The notes under the pieces were generated by a model. It saw nothing but the letters and a program-made list of their open reading frames with translations, was not told where the DNA came from and did no database searches. The translations under genes and the position numbers were made by a program. From the IMG/VR virus record IMGVR_UViG_3300028840_002667, positions 1-41,263 of that record: a stretch of DNA of 41,263 nucleotides; one strand, given 5' to 3'. Shown in pieces: positions 3,470 through 41,067 of this stretch (its first letter is position 1; each line of letters opens with the position of its first letter). This DNA is from a virus.

Positions 3470-5278
3470 ATGAGCGAGGAGTATAGGGAATTGAAGGTAA
3501 CGGAGATAGAGGCCAGCCCGTTAAATCCCCGTAAGGAATTCGACGGGGAGGGCTACGAGGAGTTTAAACAATCGGTAAAGGAAAAAGGGATAGTACAGCC
3601 CGTACTCGTACGGCCGAAACCAAAAGGCAAGGGTTACGAACTGGTGGCCGGGGAACGGCGGCATAGGGCGGTATGTGACCTGGCCGAGGGGAACGGCGAC
3701 GTAAAGGCGGCCACCATACCGGCCATCATACGCGATTTAGACGACGACGCGGCGCTAGAAATCATGTTGATAGAAAACCTACAGCGTAAGAATTTAACGC
3801 CGCTAGAGGAAGCCGAGGGCTTTAAATCGTACATTGATAAGAAGGGCAAGGGAGGTCTCCGGGCGCTATCGGAAAAGACCGGCGTAGACCAGCGATACAT
3901 ACGTCGGCGTATTGCTATCCTGGAATTACCCAAAACGATCTTGAAACAATGGGATAAGGGCAACCTCCGCCACGGCCACCTAAAGGAACTGCTAAAGGTC
4001 CCCGACAAGAAAGAGCGTAACGAACTGGCCAAGTGGGCGGCCGATTTCAAGGGCGCCCTACCCGTACGCGAGTTGGCCGAGCATGTACAGGAAAACGCCA
4101 TAGACCTGGCCGGGGCCTTATTCGATGTAGAAAAAGTATGTGTTAACAGCGGGTGTAATCATAGATCCGATTACCAAATTGAAACCATGGGCCTAAAGGG
4201 TACGCCATCTAACCATTGCTTGCATAAGAAGTGTTTTAAGCAGAAACAAAATAACTGGTTACTGAGTAATTGGAAATCGACGCCCTACCGCAAAGGCCAC
4301 AAGACAAACGGTTTTCGGTTTAACGAGGATGTAGAATACTTTCAGTGGGAACGCATAGACCGGCGGCATAAGGCCTGTAAGGATTGCAAGGATTTTGTAA
4401 CCCTGTTAGGGCTGGATGGGGACGTAAGATACGGCAAGGTGTGTATTGGGGATGAAGAATGCTATAACAAGTACTATAAATGGGGAGAGCCGAAAGAGGA
4501 TAAAAAGAAAAAGGAGGCCGGGGAAAAGAAAACGGAAAACCGGGCGCCGGGGGAGCCTCGCGTATCCTGGCATGGGGAGCATTTCCGGGAGGCCTTTTAT
4601 CAGGAAATACTACCCGGCCGCCTCCAGGATGTACCGGCAGACGACGTAAAGGCGGCCCGTATGGCTTTGTTCAGCCTGGTTATCTCAAATCATGATGTAC
4701 TAGACTGGTTTTCAGAGTGGGGTGAAAATGAGGATATATTACATGAGGAAACGCCGTATTATAGCCGGTATTTGGAATATACAGAGGCATGGGAAAAAAT
4801 ACTCTACATGGACCGGACCACGACCCTGGAGGCATTAAAACAGGCCTCGGCCAGGGTAGTAATGCAGGGCCAGACCGGGGAGGCCTCCAGGAGCGCGATA
4901 GCGGCCCATATCGGCGTATCGCTAGAAAAGGACTGGCGAATAACGGCCGAGTATTTGGAAAAGAAAACCAAGGCGAAAATAATCGAAATAGGCGAGCAGT
5001 TTAAAATATTTCGGGATGAAAAGGTAAAGGAATATTGCGCCAGTGAGCTGTTAAAGGAACCGGGGAAATACAAAAACTTTAAAAAGCCGGAGCTGGTAAA
5101 GGTGTTTTTGGAGAGCGGCGTGAATTTAGCCGGCGTAGTGCCGGTGGAGATCCTGAACGTGAAACGGCCGGCGGGGCCGGAGCTTGTTAACGTACTGGCC
5201 GGGGAAGATTTCGACGGGCCGGACCTGGCCAGCCTGGGGGATCCGGGCGAGGCGGCGGAGGCCTCTATAGAGGCGTAA
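3470..5278 (+). CDS. Large orphan ParB-like protein with cysteine-rich middle
   Basis: 602-aa protein. Residues about 5-110 are a ParB/Spo0J N-terminal domain with the nucleotide-binding box GERRHRA (about 61-67) and IENLQRKNLTPLEEA. Residues about 120-150 are the ParB helix-turn-helix (LSEKTGVDQRYIRRRIAIL). Residues about 223-340 contain two clusters of Cys and His (CVNSGCNH, then CKDCKD with later Cys), suggesting metal binding. The C-terminal 250 residues are not recognised. The start follows a very strong AAAGGGAGGT site. There is no ParA partner nearby, so classical partitioning is doubtful. It may act as a DNA-binding regulator, nuclease or DNA organiser. It lies between the packaging and head genes. 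Confidence 0.8.
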   Translation: MSEEYRELKVTEIEASPLNPRKEFDGEGYEEFKQSVKEKGIVQPVLVRPKPKGKGYELVAGERRHRAVCDLAEGNGDVKAATIPAIIRDLDDDAALEIMLIENLQRKNLTPLEEAEGFKSYIDKKGKGGLRALSEKTGVDQRYIRRRIAILELPKTILKQWDKGNLRHGHLKELLKVPDKKERNELAKWAADFKGALPVRELAEHVQENAIDLAGALFDVEKVCVNSGCNHRSDYQIETMGLKGTPSNHCLHKKCFKQKQNNWLLSNWKSTPYRKGHKTNGFRFNEDVEYFQWERIDRRHKACKDCKDFVTLLGLDGDVRYGKVCIGDEECYNKYYKWGEPKEDKKKKEAGEKKTENRAPGEPRVSWHGEHFREAFYQEILPGRLQDVPADDVKAARMALFSLVISNHDVLDWFSEWGENEDILHEETPYYSRYLEYTEAWEKILYMDRTTTLEALKQASARVVMQGQTGEASRSAIAAHIGVSLEKDWRITAEYLEKKTKAKIIEIGEQFKIFRDEKVKEYCASELLKEPGKYKNFKKPELVKVFLESGVNLAGVVPVEILNVKRPAGPELVNVLAGEDFDGPDLASLGDPGEAAEASIEA

Positions 5279-5525: not shown

Positions 5526-5554
5526 CATAAACAAACAATATTAAAGTTAGAAGT

Positions 5555-5594
5555 GTACCAAACCGTACCAAACCGTACCAAACCGTACAAAACT
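5555..5594. repeat. Four tandem 10-bp iterons
   Basis: GTACCAAACC occurs at 5555-5564, 5565-5574 and 5575-5584, followed by a variant GTACAAAACT at 5585-5594. A 10-bp period places each unit on the same face of the helix, typical of cooperative protein binding. The array ends 14 bp upstream of a sigma70-like -35 box and 30 bp after a gene for a small HTH protein. Confidence 0.85.
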
Positions 5595-5607
5595 GAAATG
5601 TAGTTGA

Positions 5608-5637
5608 TTGACTTTTTTTCTGGCGGCTGGGGATAAT
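5608..5637 (+). promoter_or_regulatory. Candidate sigma70-type promoter
   Basis: TTGACT (5608-5613), an 18-bp spacer and GATAAT (5632-5637). The iterons just upstream are where an activator or repressor would bind. Transcription would run through about 100 nt of leader into the hairpins at 5720-5776. It is a prediction by consensus only. Confidence 0.55.
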
Positions 5638-5719
5638 TGCCCGTATCCTCGTAACCGCGATTTATTATTAACCCTCTAACCATTTTTAACTACTATTTCA
5701 TTCTCACAATTTTAACCCA

Positions 5720-5776
5720 GCCCAGGGGACCTGGGCGGGCCGGTACGGGGATACTCGTACCGGCCTTTTCTTTTTT
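5720..5776 (+). terminator. Tandem hairpin intrinsic terminator before the head genes
   Basis: Two stems lie back to back. GCCCAGG/CCTGGGC (5720-5736) has a three-base loop. GGCCGGTACG/CGTACCGGCC (5738-5765) is a perfect 10-bp stem, followed by a T-rich run TTTTCTTTTTT (5766-5776). This is a strong rho-independent terminator. It ends only 17 bases before the gpW-like start codon, and the ribosome-binding site GGGAGCGAG follows at once. Head genes can therefore only be reached by read-through or antitermination from upstream. Confidence 0.88.
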
Positions 5777-5793
5777 GGGAGCGAGCTACCTAT

Positions 5794-10466: not shown

Positions 10467-11216
10467 ATGAGCAAATGGAAAAGAAAAAATAAGTTTTTTA
10501 TGGCTATTGCCGTAGCGGCCGTAATCATAACCGGTATAAGCGCATATGTGAGCGCGGTATATTATGACGGGTATTTCACAAATGTATTGGCCAAGGGGAG
10601 CATAACGGACCAGGGTACTTTAGCGGTAACGGGCGCCGCGACGTTAAGCAGTACCCTGGCGGTAACCGGCGCGATTACGGCTACGGGAGGTGTAACCGAT
10701 GTAACGGGAGGTGTTACGGCCGGGGAGATAGCCGACGTAGTACGCTATATCCCTTTGCCTATAATGGCTTTTACCCACAATGGCAGTGCGGTCATTACTT
10801 CCAGTACGGCGCCCGGCCTCGAATCAGACGACTATATAAGCAATATCGTATGGGCCGACGGTGAGACGACGCCGGTACAGATCAGTTTTCGGGTACCGGG
10901 CGATTATGCCAGCGGCGGGGCTTTCAAAATATTGGCTACGGAGTCGAATAGCACGACGCCGAACCAGGTGGATTTTGACGTATACGTTAATGCCGACGGG
11001 AGCGCGGCCGACTCCAGCGCGACGGACCAGACGCCGGTAGCCCTGGCCGGTACGACTTCGACGCCGGACGAAATCACCTTGACAGTGGCTACCGATTTCG
11101 CCAGTTTGGCCGCTGGTAACTGGGTGACTTTGAGGATATGGCGGGATGATACGGCTACCGGAAGCGGAGACCTGGAGGTAAAGGGTGCAGTATATTATTA
11201 TACAGCGACGCAGTAA
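10467..11216 (+). CDS. Exported beta-rich protein with virion-like repeats
   Basis: 249-aa protein. Residues 1-10 are basic, and 11-31 form a hydrophobic signal peptide or anchor (FFMAIAVAAVIITGISAYVS). Residues about 45-85 hold short repeats (GTLAVTGAATLSSTLAVTGA, then TDVTGGVTAGE) of the kind seen in phage fibres. The remainder is Ser/Thr/Asp-rich and beta-like with few Lys. The start follows AGGGGGGG. The last 32 bases overlap the O-antigen ligase-like gene. No enzyme motif is visible. A signal peptide is unusual for a virion protein, so it may be displayed on the cell surface. Function is unknown. Confidence 0.72.
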   Translation: MSKWKRKNKFFMAIAVAAVIITGISAYVSAVYYDGYFTNVLAKGSITDQGTLAVTGAATLSSTLAVTGAITATGGVTDVTGGVTAGEIADVVRYIPLPIMAFTHNGSAVITSSTAPGLESDDYISNIVWADGETTPVQISFRVPGDYASGGAFKILATESNSTTPNQVDFDVYVNADGSAADSSATDQTPVALAGTTSTPDEITLTVATDFASLAAGNWVTLRIWRDDTATGSGDLEVKGAVYYYTATQ

Positions 11217-12312
11217 CGCCACCATACCGCTGATGGCTGCCGGGCTGCTTATAGGTGCTGCGGTAATCCGGATCCCCTGCGACGATATCAGGTTATCTTT
11301 TCGATTAGTATTTGAAATTGCCGTAGTGGCGGGCCTGGGGCTAATCGTATGGCAGTTTAACCGATGGATTGCTAGTTTTCTAGGGCTGGCCCTGATATCC
11401 ATGATGTATCCTTTTTACGACCGCCATAGTTATTTGGCATTCCAGGCGGTGTTTTACGGGGCGGCCTGGTACATGCTGTTAGTACTCGTAATTGACAGGG
11501 ACCGGGTAAACGTCATGTTAAACGCTATCTGTATTTTGGCCTTTATCCATATTGCCATGTTGATTTTACAGAATTTTAACATGGATCCCTTGTTTACGCC
11601 GGTAAGGGGTGGCCGGGATGTGCCTGTAGGCCTGATGAGTAATCGTAATATGGTATCGGCGTTACTGGCCTTTTGTTTTCCGGCCTTTTTACGGCGAGGT
11701 TGGGCCTGGGGGATCCCGGTGGTATTGTTGGGCCTGTTGCTGGCCAAATCGACCGGCGGCGCCATGGCCCTGGCCGCCGGTATGGTATTTTATTGTGTGA
11801 TCCGGGCCGCCGGAAATCGAACCAGGGCGGAGATAATCGGAAATGTACTCATACTCGCAGCGGTGGCCGTCGGTATAATAATTTTTTGTGGTTATGTAGA
11901 TCGGCCTAATTTTTTCAATGCCCGTTTGGATGCATGGATAAACGCCCTGCGATATTATGAACAACATTGGATTATGGGCGCCGGCATCGGCCATTGGAAA
12001 GACGTTTTTCAACGTCATATGTTGACAGGCGGTACGTTATGGTGGACGACCGCCCACAATGAATACTTGCAAGGTCTATTTGAAATGGGGATAGGTTTTG
12101 CTTTAATCCTTTTTGGATATTTCCAGGCGGCGGCCAGGCGTTACCTGGCATTAAGTAAGCAGTACCGGGCGGCGGCTGAGATCCCGGCCACGGCCCTTGT
12201 GGTAATCCTGGTAAACAGCCTGGTTAATTTCCCTTTCAGGATAGCGACAACGGCCATGATGGCGATAACTTGGATGACCCTATTCGATATCAGGACGATA
12301 GTTAATGACTAG
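11185..12312 (+). CDS. O-antigen ligase / Wzy polymerase-like membrane protein
   Basis: 375-aa polytopic protein with about ten hydrophobic segments. It has the Wzy_C-type signature between residues about 250 and 300: DAWINALRYYEQ, GAGIGHWKDVF, then AHNEYLQGLFEMG. This family joins or polymerises O-antigen units on the periplasmic face of the inner membrane. The GTG start at 11185 follows GGAGGT, inside the end of the previous gene; an ATG at 11233 has no good ribosome-binding site. Codon use and GGATCC content match the head genes, so it is not a very recent import. Ligase, polymerase or an altered-specificity variant cannot be separated by sequence. A serotype-changing role is inference. 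Confidence 0.85.
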   Translation: MQYIIIQRRSNATIPLMAAGLLIGAAVIRIPCDDIRLSFRLVFEIAVVAGLGLIVWQFNRWIASFLGLALISMMYPFYDRHSYLAFQAVFYGAAWYMLLVLVIDRDRVNVMLNAICILAFIHIAMLILQNFNMDPLFTPVRGGRDVPVGLMSNRNMVSALLAFCFPAFLRRGWAWGIPVVLLGLLLAKSTGGAMALAAGMVFYCVIRAAGNRTRAEIIGNVLILAAVAVGIIIFCGYVDRPNFFNARLDAWINALRYYEQHWIMGAGIGHWKDVFQRHMLTGGTLWWTTAHNEYLQGLFEMGIGFALILFGYFQAAARRYLALSKQYRAAAEIPATALVVILVNSLVNFPFRIATTAMMAITWMTLFDIRTIVND

Positions 12313-16995: not shown

Positions 16996-18117
16996 ATGCT
17001 AGACTTTGGAACAGTAAAACCAGGGACTACTCTATATATTCCATGGAATACTTTTTCCAGCGATGACCCGTCTGCATCGATGACAATTACCGGTTTGGCG
17101 ACCACGGATATAGAGATCTATAAGAATGGGTCTACCACACAACGGTCGAGTGACAGCGGATATGCCCTGCTTGACACTGATGGTATTGATTTTGATTCGG
17201 TAACAGGAATCCATGGGATCTCTATAAACTTGGCAGACAATACCGATGCGGGATTCTATGCTTCCGGTGCCCAATATTGGGTAGTTATCGCTTCTATTAC
17301 ATTGGATGCTGGCACCATCAACTTTGTTGCGGCCACGTTCCGTATTGGGTATCCCGATGCCCTTCTAGATACCACTATTGCCTCACTGTCCACCCAGACC
17401 AGTTTTACGCTGACCGCTGGACCCGCAGAAGATAATGCCCTGAATGGGATGTACTGCATTATCCATGATATTGCTAGTGCGGTGCAAATGGGTTATGCGG
17501 TTATCAGTGATTATACCGGCGCGACAAAGACAGTAACTCTGGCGGCTGGCACGACCTTTACTGCAGCAGCAGGCGACAATATATCTATTATGGGTCCGAT
17601 GCCACTACAACCTGCGACATCTGGGCGTACACTTGGGGTGGAATCCGACGGGGACTTGACCAAGGTAAATACGCTTGACGGCCATACTGCTCAAACCGGA
17701 GACACTTATGCTCTTGCTAACGGGGCAGCCGGGTTTGTGGCCATTGATACCGTAGTTGATGCGATTAAGGCGGTTACGGATAATTTGCCTGATAGCGGGG
17801 CTTTGTCCAGCCTGGCAACAGCGACAGCCCTTGCCACAGTTGATACCGTAGTTGATGCGATTATGGCGGTTACGGACAATTTGCCTGATAGCGGGGCGCT
17901 CAGCTCCCTGGCCACAGCGGCGGCTTTAACTACCGTCGATACGGTGGTGGACGCGATCAAGGCCGTCACGGACAATTTGCCCGATAGCGGGGCGCTCAGC
18001 TCCCTGGCCACAGCGGCGGCTTTAACTACCGTCGATACGGTGGTGGACGCGATCAAGGCCGTCACGGACAATTTGCCTCGATACGGTGGTGGACGCGATC
18101 AAGGCAAAAACAGATAA
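16996..18117 (+). CDS. Structural protein with 32-aa tandem repeats, broken at its 3' end
   Basis: 373 aa. The N-terminal half is beta-rich (TTLYIPWNTFSSDDPSASMT, then DAGTINFVAATFRIG) and likely virion-associated. From residue 250 it has near-identical 32-residue repeats (VDTVVDAIKAVTDNLP, then DSGALSSLATAAALTT). The fourth copy stops after 16 residues, where the frame changes and ends in a 12-residue out-of-frame tail. The repeat continues in the frame of the next ORF (from 18080), which strongly suggests that both were one protein. GGAGG at 16980-16985 precedes the ATG. Codon use resembles the previous gene. Confidence 0.7.
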   Translation: MLDFGTVKPGTTLYIPWNTFSSDDPSASMTITGLATTDIEIYKNGSTTQRSSDSGYALLDTDGIDFDSVTGIHGISINLADNTDAGFYASGAQYWVVIASITLDAGTINFVAATFRIGYPDALLDTTIASLSTQTSFTLTAGPAEDNALNGMYCIIHDIASAVQMGYAVISDYTGATKTVTLAAGTTFTAAAGDNISIMGPMPLQPATSGRTLGVESDGDLTKVNTLDGHTAQTGDTYALANGAAGFVAIDTVVDAIKAVTDNLPDSGALSSLATATALATVDTVVDAIMAVTDNLPDSGALSSLATAAALTTVDTVVDAIKAVTDNLPDSGALSSLATAAALTTVDTVVDAIKAVTDNLPRYGGGRDQGKNR

Positions 18118-18133
18118 TTTGCCATCGGGTGTT
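17743..18133 (+). repeat. Tandem 96-bp coding repeats with a 50-bp deficit
   Basis: Copies start at 17743, 17839, 17935 and 18031. Copies 2-4 share long identical DNA stretches. The distance from copy 4 to the next copy (GATACGG at 18034 and at 18080) is 46 bp, not 96, so 50 bp are missing and the reading frame shifts. Each copy codes for 32 residues. Confidence 0.9.
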
Positions 18134-29400: not shown

Positions 29401-30986
29401 TGGCCATAGAGACTGATAAGATTGATAATCTAGCGATTACCGCCGGAAAAATAGATGCCGCCGCCGTAGAAACTGCAAAAATAAAAGACCTTGCAGTAAC
29501 AGGGGGAAAGATAGAAGCCGGGGCTATAGACACGGGCCATTTAGCCAATTTAGCGGTTACCGCCGGGAAAATTGATAATCTTACAATTACAGCCGCCCAA
29601 ATCGCCAATCTTACCATTACCGGCGGAGCGGCTGGCAAAATTGCAACAAGCACAATTACCGAGGATAACATAGTAGCCAATACGATCACGGCCGCGTCAA
29701 TCGCCGCCAATACGATCACGGCCGCCGAAATCGCAACTGGCACCATTACCGCCTCCGAAATCGCCGCCAATACGATCACGGCCGCCGAAATCAGCGCCGG
29801 TGCTATAGATACAAGCGAGCTTGCCGCAAACGCCGTCACGGCCTCGGAGATTAACGGCGGCGCGTTTGGGGCGCTAACCATATCATCGGGAAGTATTACC
29901 TTTAATGCCACGGACTCTATACAGATACAGGCCGCTCAAGGTATGAAGGTATTGGCCGGTGCTGATATATACCTTGTGGGACATGCGAGCAATGCTGGTA
30001 CGATAGTATGTGACGGCACTACTCAGGGTGTTATTTATGGCGCAGAAGCCGCCGGAACCTCGGCCGGGTTTCATCCATCGGGGAGCGGAGTGGGTACTTT
30101 TGGGATAGGTTGGGATTTTTATAACAATATGGCTTATCCGTTCAATGTTATTTATATGTATGCAGACGCGGGCATAGTCATAGAAAACCGCGTAGGGGCA
30201 AGCTCAAATCGAGCACGATTGAGCCTTGCCAGTGGGCATGTCGAATTAGGTACATTGGATGCGGGATGGATGACCGAGTTGGATATGACGGATACGGCTA
30301 TAACGGCTATTGTTAATACTGCTACCGTTTTATCATTGGCAGATACAGGCCTAACGATGTCGGCCGGTACGACTATCACTATGGACGGCAATATCCTTAT
30401 GACGGATACTGATTACATCGGGATATCGTCCGCCGAAAGAGTGGAATTTTACGCCGTCGGATATGTGGCGGTAATGGGGGCAAAACTTGGAATCAGGATT
30501 GCCAGCCCACAGAGCATATTGCATGTGCATGACGTATCCAGCGGGGCGGTATATGCCCAATTTACTAATATTACCACAGGATCAGGGGATGCGTCACAAG
30601 GGCTTGCCGTCGGAATTTCAGCGACGGAAGTGGCATATCTGTGGAATTACGAGAATACCAACATGATTCTAGGCACGAACAACGGCGCGGCGATTACTAT
30701 TGATACCTCTCAAAATGTGACCATCGCCGGTACGCTTACCGTCGATGGCGATCAAACCGGGGCTACAGATCATGTATTTGATGATTTCGACGATATAGCG
30801 CTTTTATACAGTTGGAGAAAGGGAGAGGGCCTACCGTTTAATGCGGGCGACATATTAAACCGGGATCGATTGTTGAGGGATGCAATGCTTCAATTCTATG
30901 AGGAGCAAAAAGAAATATTGTCATATTTATGTATCAAAACCGGTATGACATATGCCGATGCCCTGGCAGCCGCACGGCTAAATTAA
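26469..30986 (+). CDS. Tip attachment protein J-like, with I-like N-terminus and fibre repeats
   Basis: 1505 aa, the largest gene. Residues 1-105 carry a hydrophobic, Gly/Ala-rich region (VATVIGALAGAAFFFKMGMM) like lambda gpI and TipJ N-termini. Residues about 110-340 and 480-700 match tip-attachment protein cores (EGTPVPLPYGRTLAAGNIV, GRGTVDKFLGHWINGVEW). Residues about 350-470 look like an inserted discoidin (F5/8 C) domain. Residues about 970-1130 are short repeats, including six 10-residue units such as ANTITAAEIA. The rest ends in fibre-tip-like beta segments (LGIRIASPQSILHVHD). It recognises the host surface and seals the tail tip. The start at 26469 follows a GGGG run. Confidence 0.85.
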   Translation: MERKAKSLMKSLKNSQIRRIQKKVFIYVAFITGILFAAASAHALVATVIGALAGAAFFFKMGMMVTVGGSLLFSAGAGTIGALIAGAALGAIGGSAMGLPRALTPDLPEVGKDSPNYKEDYPKATVQEGTPVPLPYGRTLAAGNIVRQNDAAAADYIEFIICHGRGTVDKFLGHWINGVEWTDLRNGNHARWAQEGESNQSGVTHLFSDAEASNYRGYALTEVRLAKGDEIRGLDNIYAVGLWRECLEIGQDAGGSKSWTRNPAKIIWDHYITQEGYAASELDSNAFTALESYCDNVPSDDSQPIRPTPVSDDMVTEAARTASWQYKAKWALRKDKSLTGEDARAAWKEEATTNKRINIDFSIAQVIDKMRLENYHNSGADTDVGIQNFVIQGSNNPASFADTSYASTGWTDLLTDSASQHAASDASDPEEFTISNSTAYRYYAIKMADNHGDGNYMGFRDLTFYGKQPRYTFDFVFDTNIEKVDALKIMWDSFNGKTIDSQGTIKPVWDAAQMHDGAGGLTTKSSSFSFDEDNIVPGSFTWGRLKRPNIVRIHFRDSADNFKKTSVELRDDKDINDRGEIVHSETCWYITERSVALRRCKYKFDKARYTDHACRLTGDPSSQAIEIYDRVDVTDPKGMWTAKDFVVIEKDEDQYGRPMFYLEEYNSGIYNDDGFEVQPGYRSHLPHPSEVSPPSTIHTLANITTGTKHSYGSISVKITPPNWPHYSKTKVFGSNDDSTFYYVGETDGGKDLVINGMGTLYQPGDTVYIRLVNVNANGTQEPFPTSSDGQIVTASAVRLGSFYAGDTDLWGGNAALGNAATTIVLGDLADTPKIAIGTTTADSMTLANMATHPGFYADATGDCRFGGNGGGAAWDQSESTFTVEGILQASEIHIPDKDSTASSFHVQTDGDTWWGCTETNFNADNNNATAYILKTGAAKFQSVTLSDNVILSGLQAGSDIDGQYLTALSVDTAAIAALAIETDKIDNLAITAGKIDAAAVETAKIKDLAVTGGKIEAGAIDTGHLANLAVTAGKIDNLTITAAQIANLTITGGAAGKIATSTITEDNIVANTITAASIAANTITAAEIATGTITASEIAANTITAAEISAGAIDTSELAANAVTASEINGGAFGALTISSGSITFNATDSIQIQAAQGMKVLAGADIYLVGHASNAGTIVCDGTTQGVIYGAEAAGTSAGFHPSGSGVGTFGIGWDFYNNMAYPFNVIYMYADAGIVIENRVGASSNRARLSLASGHVELGTLDAGWMTELDMTDTAITAIVNTATVLSLADTGLTMSAGTTITMDGNILMTDTDYIGISSAERVEFYAVGYVAVMGAKLGIRIASPQSILHVHDVSSGAVYAQFTNITTGSGDASQGLAVGISATEVAYLWNYENTNMILGTNNGAAITIDTSQNVTIAGTLTVDGDQTGATDHVFDDFDDIALLYSWRKGEGLPFNAGDILNRDRLLRDAMLQFYEEQKEILSYLCIKTGMTYADALAAARLN
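29675..29854 (+). repeat. 30-bp coding repeats in the J-like fibre region
   Basis: Six consecutive 10-codon units coding for variants of ANTITAAEIA. Parts are identical at DNA level (GCCAATACGATCACGGCC occurs three times). Such spaced hydrophobic repeats form trimeric shafts in fibres and allow length change by recombination. Confidence 0.75.
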
Positions 30987-38621: not shown

Positions 38622-38755
38622 CCGAAAATCAAGGGAAAATGCAGTACCGTTGGGACTATCCGTAATCAGCTAAACCCTTGATTTTCCTTAATGGAATCAG
38701 GGGTTTTTTTATGCTTTCTTATCCTGCCTTATATCCAAAAGGTAGCATTGCTACC
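38589..38755. other. Candidate attP region with arm-type repeats
   Basis: GGTAGCAA occurs at 38589-38596 and 38600-38607, and the dyad GGTAGCA/TTGCTACC at 38741-38755. These flank a 12-bp perfect inverted repeat, 38624-38635 and 38675-38686 (GAAAATCAAGGG / CCCTTGATTTTC). Arm repeats around a central dyad right after int are typical of attP. The exact crossover core cannot be identified without the bacterial junctions. Confidence 0.55.
38673..38710 (+). terminator. Intrinsic terminator after int
   Basis: AACCCTTGATT (38673-38683) pairs with AATCAGGGGTT (38695-38705) with one G-U pair and an 11-base loop, followed by a run of T to 38710. It stops the early/int transcript. Its left arm is also the right arm of the inverted repeat beginning at 38624, so two RNA folds compete. 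Confidence 0.82.
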
Positions 38756-38812
38756 ATCTACCAGCAGAAAACCAAATGGTGTCAATCCACAAAAAAAAGG
38801 GAGGGATTTATT

Positions 38813-39169
38813 ATGAAAACATCGGAGGAAACTATTAGCCTGGATAATTTAAAAGAGGGAGCGGCTATAGAATTGTTTAACAGGGAAATACAGATGGTAT
38901 TGAATGACATCGTAGATCCTAACAAACAACAGGACGCCGCGAGGGAGGTTGATTTAAAACTATCCATTAAGCCGTCAGAGGATGGAATGATGGGCGATGT
39001 AATCTTAAAAATAAAATCAAAATTAGCGCCCATGGCGCCGGTGTTTACTAAGGTAGTTATGGGCGGTAGATCCGGACACGGCGAGGCCAGGGAATTAGTA
39101 TCAACGCAGCAAAAATTATTTGATGGGGATAGTAAAGTTATACCCATAGAAAGGATGGAAGATGATTAA
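38813..39169 (+). CDS. Conserved phage protein upstream of a DUF2303-like gene
   Basis: 118 aa from the ATG at 38813, which follows AGGGAGGG; the open frame begins at 38678 but those codons lie across the terminator. Contents: EGAAIELFNREIQMVLNDIV, DPNKQQDAAREVDLKLSIKP and DVILKIKSKLAPM. The same kind of protein often precedes the DUF2303-like gene in phage early regions. Function is unknown. It overlaps the next gene by eight bases. Confidence 0.7.
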   Translation: MKTSEETISLDNLKEGAAIELFNREIQMVLNDIVDPNKQQDAAREVDLKLSIKPSEDGMMGDVILKIKSKLAPMAPVFTKVVMGGRSGHGEARELVSTQQKLFDGDSKVIPIERMEDD

Positions 39170-39966: not shown

Positions 39967-40923
39967 ATGCCACGTAACCGGCGATCCCTAGGAAAAAGGA
40001 TAAGCCATAGTAAGCGAGTGAATAAATTATCAATCAGGGCCATGCTGCTTTATACCTGGTTAATACCCCAATACGACGACGACGGGCGTATAGACGGGGA
40101 CCCGGAGGACCTGAAATACAATGTATTTCCTCGCCGGGAGGATATCACGGTAGATGATTTGGTTGATGATATAGAGGCAATGGTGGCCCTGGACCTGGTG
40201 ACCTGGTACGAGGTAGACGGTACGCCATATGTCCAAATGGATCCGGAAGCCTGGGAGGAAAACCAATCTTTCAGGGGGATAAAAAGGATACATAGCAAGA
40301 TTCCGAAATATGACCCGGCCGCACATAAGGTGTACCACTACACCGGGGGCGGTGTACCAGGACACCAAAATAATGGACCAGTACACCGGGATCGGTGTAC
40401 CACTACACCGGGGGCGGTGTACCAGGACACCGGAGGCGGTGACCAGGTACACCCTATAAGAGAAGGTAAGAGAAGTAAAGAAAAGAGTTTTACTAAAGTA
40501 AAACACCCTCCGGGTGACCTCCCTCCAAAACCAAAAGAGAAAAAGGGCTTTACCAAAGTACTGGGGGATAGTGCGCCTATAGTTGAATTGGCCAACCAGG
40601 TGCTGAGTAGAAACGGCGCAAAATCTTTTAAAGACGTATTCAAATGGGTGCAAAAAATGACCAATGAAAGTATGCATCCCGGCGCCATTAAAGAAACCCT
40701 CCAGCAAATAGTAAACCGCTGGGATAGCATCGAGGACCCATGGCCCTATAGTACGAGCGTATGTTTTAAACTATCAAGCGAGTACGCCGAAAAGGAACGA
40801 ATAGCCGAGGCCGAAAAACTCAAAAAGGATTTAGACGCATTTCTACAAACCGAGCAGGGCCAGGCCATTACCGGCCTACTATCCAAATCAATCAAGAAAG
40901 TACCAGACGCCAGGGCGCCCTAG
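39967..40923 (+). CDS. Replication initiator with internal origin
   Basis: 318 aa. Residues 1-100 form a winged-helix domain typical of phage replisome organisers (SIRAMLLYTWLIPQYDDDGR, GDPEDLKYNVFPRREDITVD, LDLVTWYEVDGTPYVQMDPE). Residues about 121-162 are an odd Gly/His/Thr-rich linker encoded by DNA iterons. The C-terminal half (about 200-300) is helical and DnaD-like (FKDVFKWVQKMTNESMHPGA, NRWDSIEDPWPYST) and may bind the helicase. It follows AGGGGGGGCTAATA. The build is that of lambda O: initiator gene with the origin inside it. No helicase gene is seen in the window. Confidence 0.82.
   Translation: MPRNRRSLGKRISHSKRVNKLSIRAMLLYTWLIPQYDDDGRIDGDPEDLKYNVFPRREDITVDDLVDDIEAMVALDLVTWYEVDGTPYVQMDPEAWEENQSFRGIKRIHSKIPKYDPAAHKVYHYTGGGVPGHQNNGPVHRDRCTTTPGAVYQDTGGGDQVHPIREGKRSKEKSFTKVKHPPGDLPPKPKEKKGFTKVLGDSAPIVELANQVLSRNGAKSFKDVFKWVQKMTNESMHPGAIKETLQQIVNRWDSIEDPWPYSTSVCFKLSSEYAEKERIAEAEKLKKDLDAFLQTEQGQAITGLLSKSIKKVPDARAP
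40329..40453. other. Iteron-type replication origin inside the initiator gene
   Basis: Five 16-bp dyads of the form GGTGTACCACTACACC or GGTGTACCAGGACACC start at 40329, 40351, 40394, 40416 and 40438 (the last is GGTGACCAGGTACACC). A degenerate sixth sits at 40372. The period is about 22 bp, two helical turns. A 38-bp pair repeats exactly (40329-40366 and 40394-40431). An A-rich, purine-rich segment follows (40454-40505) and could be the DNA-unwinding element. The arrangement mirrors lambda ori in gene O. Confidence 0.85.
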
Positions 40924-41067
40924 TAATGCGATCGACAATTAGCGATCGACGGCCGCCGCCAGGGATCCGCCAGGGGACCGGCGCCGCCCGGATCCGGCCG
41001 AGGCCTCCGCCCTGGGGATCCGGATAACAAAAAATCAATTCTTTAAGAATCAAGAAACGGGGGATAC
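40924..41067. other. Non-coding gap with short repeats
   Basis: 144 bases with no gene. GCGATCGAC occurs twice (40928-40936, 40942-40950). A GC-rich segment with three GGATCC sites follows, and then the second copy of the 28-bp dispersed repeat. It separates the initiator gene from the DUF5662 gene. Confidence 0.5.
41028..41055. repeat. Dispersed 28-bp repeat, copy 2
   Basis: Identical to 21540-21567 except for one base in the centre. It contains the dyad ATTCTT-T-AAGAAT and sits 12 bases before the ATG of the DUF5662 gene. Confidence 0.8.

Follow-up and report, generated by a model that had tools for sequence, protein, structure and literature searches.

A candidate phage replication origin of iterons and purine pentamers within an initiator gene

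The initiator gene and its dyad array

The window, by which we mean the whole stretch of 41,263 nucleotides that was analyzed, is an IMG/VR virus record and belongs to a temperate tailed phage that encodes a lambda-type portal, a GpA terminase, an integrase and a CII-like regulator, and a Megablast search of its first 25 kb against phages gave no match. At 39967-40923 on the plus strand is a gene for a 318-aa protein that matches phrog_1408 (E 2e-10, spanning aa 14-167, the N-terminal domain) and phrog_2149 (E 8e-6), both of which are named 'replication initiation protein'. Its best viral fold match in Foldseek is a Replisome organizer (E 1.7e-9), its fold matches in the PDB are generic winged-helix DNA-binding proteins alone with none reaching E <0.001, and its PHROG profile matches include no O-like PHROG. 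Two genes upstream, at 38678-39169, is a match to phrog_997, which is named 'replication terminator'.

AlphaFold2, given an alignment of 46 sequences, predicts a two-domain initiator. Specifically, there is an N-terminal winged-helix domain at aa 1-128 (39967-40350, plus strand; pLDDT mostly >90) that is a putative iteron binder, and a C-terminal helical domain at aa 194-310 (40546-40896, plus strand) that is the predicted counterpart of the DnaD C-domain as judged by the family profile. Between them lies an interdomain linker at aa 129-185 (40351-40521, plus strand) that is predicted to be disordered, with pLDDT <50 at aa 129-181 and 183-185. An earlier note, made from the sequence alone, had described this initiator as DnaD-like. 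That description holds for the family, given that 18 of 46 relatives match Pfam DnaB_2 (PF07261) and that the family profile matches the DnaD C-domain structures 2zc2 (E 1.8e-4) and 2i5u (E 2.6e-4), but it does not extend to a Pfam match for the window initiator itself, which has none.

The gene contains six 16-bp dyads that start at 40329, 40351, 40372, 40394, 40416 and 40438, in steps of 22, 21, 22, 22 and 22 bp. Each dyad has a 6-bp spacer flanked by the 5-bp arms GGTGT and ACACC, so that these half-sites alternate about every 11 bp along the array at 40329-40453. Four dyads form one class: on the plus strand iteron 1 (40329-40344, GGTGTACCACTACACC) is identical to iteron 4 (40394-40409, GGTGTACCACTACACC), and iteron 2 (40351-40366, GGTGTACCAGGACACC) is identical to iteron 5 (40416-40431, GGTGTACCAGGACACC). 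Iteron 3 (40372-40387, plus strand, AATGGACCAGTACACC) is degenerate, and iteron 6 (40438-40453, minus strand, GGTGACCAGGTACACC) is the inverted consensus with one mismatch. In addition, the 38-bp blocks at 40329-40366 and 40394-40431 are 100% identical and 65 bp apart. The earlier note had given the dyad positions, their 21- and 22-bp steps, the exact 38-bp repeat and a single degenerate dyad, all of which are exact, and its placement of the dyads inside an initiator gene is borne out by the PHROG and fold matches above.

The dyads are read in phases 2, 0, 0, 1, 2 and 0 of the gene, and the 65-bp shift between the two blocks is not a whole number of codons; the encoded peptides therefore differ while the DNA is kept. 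The best offset repeat in the initiator gene scores 38, whereas 60 codon shuffles reach no more than 12, and the 22-bp periodicity of the linker has a Z of 5.2 relative to synonymous recodings of the same protein. Both the changing frames and the recodings indicate selection on the DNA and not on the encoded peptide. When the window iteron was used as a DNA pattern against viral contigs there were 7 matches, all in other genes and judged to be chance. The iteron was thus found nowhere else, and the binding specificity proposed for it below is drawn by analogy. GC skew, which shows no turn at 40.4 kb, was an uninformative measure.

The pentamer tract 3' of the iterons

Directly 3' of the last dyad, at 40457-40486 on the plus strand, are six tandem pentamers of the form NAAGN (TAAGA, GAAGG, TAAGA, GAAGT, AAAGA and AAAGA) that are a candidate unwinding element, with the purine strand being the coding strand. 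Together with iterons 2-6 this tract encodes the interdomain linker. It is immediately followed by a perfect AT-rich inverted repeat with 8-bp arms (40487-40504, no strand assigned, GTTTTACT-AA-AGTAAAAC), and nucleotides 510-540 of the gene are 57% A. The earlier note had reported an A-rich segment after the dyads; the segment is indeed present, as purine pentamers plus an AT-rich dyad at 40457-40504, but its order as (NAAGN)x6 had been missed.

Nowhere else on the two strands of the 41-kb window do three or more NAAGN units stand in tandem. Four such units are expected 0.003 times per strand, five or six units are absent from 300 dinucleotide shuffles, and only 3 of 2000 synonymous recodings reach six units, all with a pattern that was picked after viewing the sequence. 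It is this pattern that singles out 40457 and not the lag-5 score, which across the whole window has its maximum at 5550 and not at the candidate origin. Plain purine content is not significant relative to codon shuffles in the window and in many relatives, and the pentamer claim therefore rests on periodicity and not on composition.

Two known origin elements were considered for this tract and rejected. The DnaD recognition element 5'-TnnT-3' (PMC10201434) would lie on the complementary strand, where the NCTTN repeat does not specifically encode it, and a DnaA-trio/BUS origin does not fit a period of 5 instead of 3. The nearest DnaA boxes with an exact sequence or one mismatch lie beyond the array, and such boxes are no more frequent than expected by chance. 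The open papers that we searched hold no account of such a pentamer tract; because the search covered mostly open papers and few of those behind subscriptions, with the original descriptions of the Tuc2009 and SPP1 origins among those outside it, the tract can be called a candidate novelty and no more.

Arrays in related and unrelated initiators

A single-sequence query found no close relatives of the whole protein among viral contigs. An alignment query recovered 70 viral and 12 cellular loci that represent 58 distinct genes, a set that includes the window and three phage records. Nearly all of these relatives have a repeat array whose position, codons ~105-170, matches that of the window array and whose sequence differs; L055, L068 and L078 are relatives with no significant array. 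The earlier note had suggested searching related phages for conserved iterons with diverged protein linkers, and what we find is arrays that are conserved in place with sequences and linkers that have diverged, which favors an origin.

Autocorrelation over 55 genes has linker peaks at lags of 5, 10, 11, 15, 20, 22, 25 and 30 and is flat in the winged-helix and C-terminal regions, and the peaks at 5, 10, 11 and 20 survive synonymous recoding in the relatives. Palindromes with 4-bp arms occur at 2.14 times expectation at nt 300-390 and 1.65 times at nt 360-450, as compared with 0.8-1.14 times elsewhere. The relatives also have equivalents of the pentamers, in the form of GAACN, NAAAG or AAAGN, with one clade having AAGTTA hexamers of period 6. 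The best lag-5 30-mer of a locus falls within initiator codons 100-187 in 31 of the 58 loci, where 2.8 are expected.

These patterns bear on the view that the array arose neutrally, by tandem duplication in a linker that evolves fast, or that it was selected for the charge or low complexity of its peptide. The exact 38-bp repeat does suggest a recent duplication, linkers tolerate change, and many relatives have a K/E-rich linker. However, none of the periods 5, 10, 11, 20 and 22 is divisible by the codon length and all exceed what synonymous recoding gives, the palindrome enrichment is confined to the linker region, and the polarity is fixed, all of which makes this view quite improbable. An operator or autoregulatory site, at which the initiator or a phage repressor would occupy the dyads to control early transcription, is likewise a most unlikely reading: the dyads look operator-like and arrays of six sites are able to repress, but the arrays of relatives are mid-gene, always beside the interdomain linker, and are coupled to a 3' pentamer tract that an operator does not need.

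Several relatives have very regular iterons, namely GCGGCGAGTT at 10 bp in L083, TGCGCAGCACA at 11 bp in L062 and ten copies of AGACCAACTCC at 11 bp in L074, which are good material for studying initiator-iteron specificity.

When viral contigs were scanned blind for (AAGNN)x7, at least 80 loci were recovered. These matches are a non-random sample in which related phages are counted, and the figures that follow are therefore descriptive. Among the 80 loci listed, 68 have the array in the sense direction of an ORF of at least 120 aa, 2 have it antisense and 10 have it in no ORF, and in the matches listed every complete sense ORF between 180 and 360 aa (50 of 50) carries it at codons 100-200. 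The array-bearing ORFs listed belong mostly to replication-initiation families that have differing DNA-binding domains: among the 63 distinct proteins listed, phrog_2562 (named replication initiation protein) is matched by 38, Lin1244_N by 35 and phrog_1408, which the window initiator also matches, by 9, and others match DnaD-like loaders and replisome organizers. Lin1244_N initiators, which have an unrelated N-domain, contain AAAGN pentamers at codons 143-168. A period-7 control was background-like: 10 of 80 listed loci were in sense, and just one of its four complete ORFs carried the array within codons 100-200. A period-4 control was intermediate, with the array at codons 100-200 in 12 of 20 complete sense ORFs, some of which code for initiators. 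Period 5 is thus the strongest, yet not the sole, period.

In the matches listed, direct repeats that beat all shuffles are present upstream of the tract in 28 of 55 genes versus 2 of 55 downstream, with upstream spacings of mostly 10-12, 21-22 or 33 bp. Palindromes in the tract-bearing genes listed number 465 upstream versus 243 expected, and 350 downstream versus 279 expected. Judging from these sequences, the general order is iterons and then coding-strand pentamers, and the window conforms to it. A further proposal, which we regard as evenly balanced, is that the sense-strand AAG pentamer tract is an undescribed strand-specific origin element for unwinding or single-strand capture, common to initiator families with differing DNA-binding and C-terminal domains (the winged-helix family of the window, Lin1244_N and the Tuc2009 type) and always 3' of family-specific iterons. 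If true, the AAG tract would correspond in phages to DnaA-trios or thymidine-rich DUE repeats, and could serve as a signature with which to find phage origins by sequence alone.

The origin reading, its parallels and the phage context

We conclude that 40329 to about 40490 is very probably a phage theta-replication origin located inside the initiator gene. This reading follows from the homology and fold of the initiator, an array that shifts frame, periodicity and palindromes that are confined to the linker in relatives, pentamers at the same place and known parallels. It is extremely improbable that the array is instead a partition site for the ParB-like protein of this phage, since, even though the window encodes a 602-aa ParB-N/HTH_ParB protein (3470-5278, between the terminase and portal genes) and centromere arrays can be repeats, the arrays track the initiator gene at the same place across the family and in unrelated initiators, the ParB gene is 35 kb off in the packaging and head region, and the ORFs scanned include no recognisable ParA.

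Origins within genes are already known from lambda O, SPP1 gene 38, Tuc2009 rep and pSK41 rep, and by its anatomy the window belongs to that kind. What is new here is the order of the A-rich segment, whose pentamers may constitute a general element of origins that has not been described before. Like the window, lambda O has mid-gene initiator iterons followed by an A-rich segment (PMC7466680; J02459). The likeness to the lambda origin proposed in the earlier note is correct as to the in-gene design and the different iterons, but the contrast it drew, in which only the window has inverted repeats, is wrong given that each lambdoid iteron is also an imperfect inverted repeat (PMC7466680). Lambda has four iterons of 18-19 bp (six in Stx phages) where the window has six 16-bp dyads of unrelated sequence, and an ordered pentamer tract is present in lambda weakly if at all, as read from its sequence by eye.

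Tuc2009 rep (Lactococcus phage, AF109874 orf16) also has an in-gene origin, being annotated 'contains origin of replication', and has CAACCA repeats followed by coding-strand purine pentamers at codons 131-150. It differs from the window in its Rep_Org_C C-domain, its iterons and its AGGAT/AGGTA pentamers. The closest annotated relatives are the DnaD-domain initiators of the Paenibacillus phages Fernvirus and Harrisonvirus, with 37% identity over aa 5-135, in which palindromic TTCCGGGAA-type repeats precede GAACN pentamers; these differ from the window in iteron sequence and in a spacing of 10 bp. Two further systems are likened to the window by description. SPP1 oriL lies in gene 38, which codes for the origin-binding protein, and has direct repeats and an AT-rich unwinding element (PMC6316719), though SPP1 also has another origin, oriR. 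The pSK41-type RepA_N plasmids have their origin within the rep coding region; the domains of this Rep are structurally DnaD-like and the origin-encoded peptide is dispensable (PMC5703833), though this is a plasmid with another initiator family.

From the anatomy and from reviewed iteron origins we infer how binding, melting, strand choice and helicase loading could proceed. Dimers of the initiator, via the N-terminal winged helix, would bind the GGTGT/ACACC dyads, and initiator copies would stack into an oligomer along the array since the sites are about two helical turns apart. The stacked initiator would then strain and open the adjoining purine-rich pentamer tract 3' of the iterons, after which one of its two strands would be kept single-stranded, plausibly the T-rich complement of sequence CTTNN. 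In reviewed iteron origins, the iteron-bound Rep also engages the single-stranded DUE, and thymidines are important (PMC10797057). Finally, the DnaD-like C-domain would recruit a helicase loader or helicase; none was recognised among the ORFs scanned, which are part of those in a linear record that ends 340 bp after the gene. The occurrence of the pentamer with several types of C-domain suggests either that initiators converged on single-strand binding or that they share a host partner.

Helically phased iterons followed by a coding-strand (AAGNN)n between initiator domains appears to mark the origins of many uncultivated temperate phages. This rule makes two questions testable, namely which factor holds the open strand at phage origins that lack DnaA-type filaments, and how a winged helix and its iterons co-evolve within one gene.

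Additional features were observed elsewhere in the window. The intergenic region after the initiator gene (40924-41030) is very GC-rich with GGATCCGG-type repeats, and RNA folding of a hairpin there is no better than that of shuffles (z -0.98). An ORF with an O-antigen ligase domain (11185-12312; Wzy_C, E 1.2e-9) lies amid the head genes. Tandem repeats of 96 and 46 bp occur in coding sequence at 17746-18123, and 3.9 copies of a 30-bp tandem repeat at 29676-29792 within a 1505-aa ORF. Upstream of the portal gene, the intergenic region at 5526-5793 contains four 10-bp repeats (GTACCAAACC) at 5552-5595 that include one exact GTGTACC iteron half-site, and by analogy with the second origin in the late region of SPP1 these repeats are possibly a second initiator site, or else an operator.
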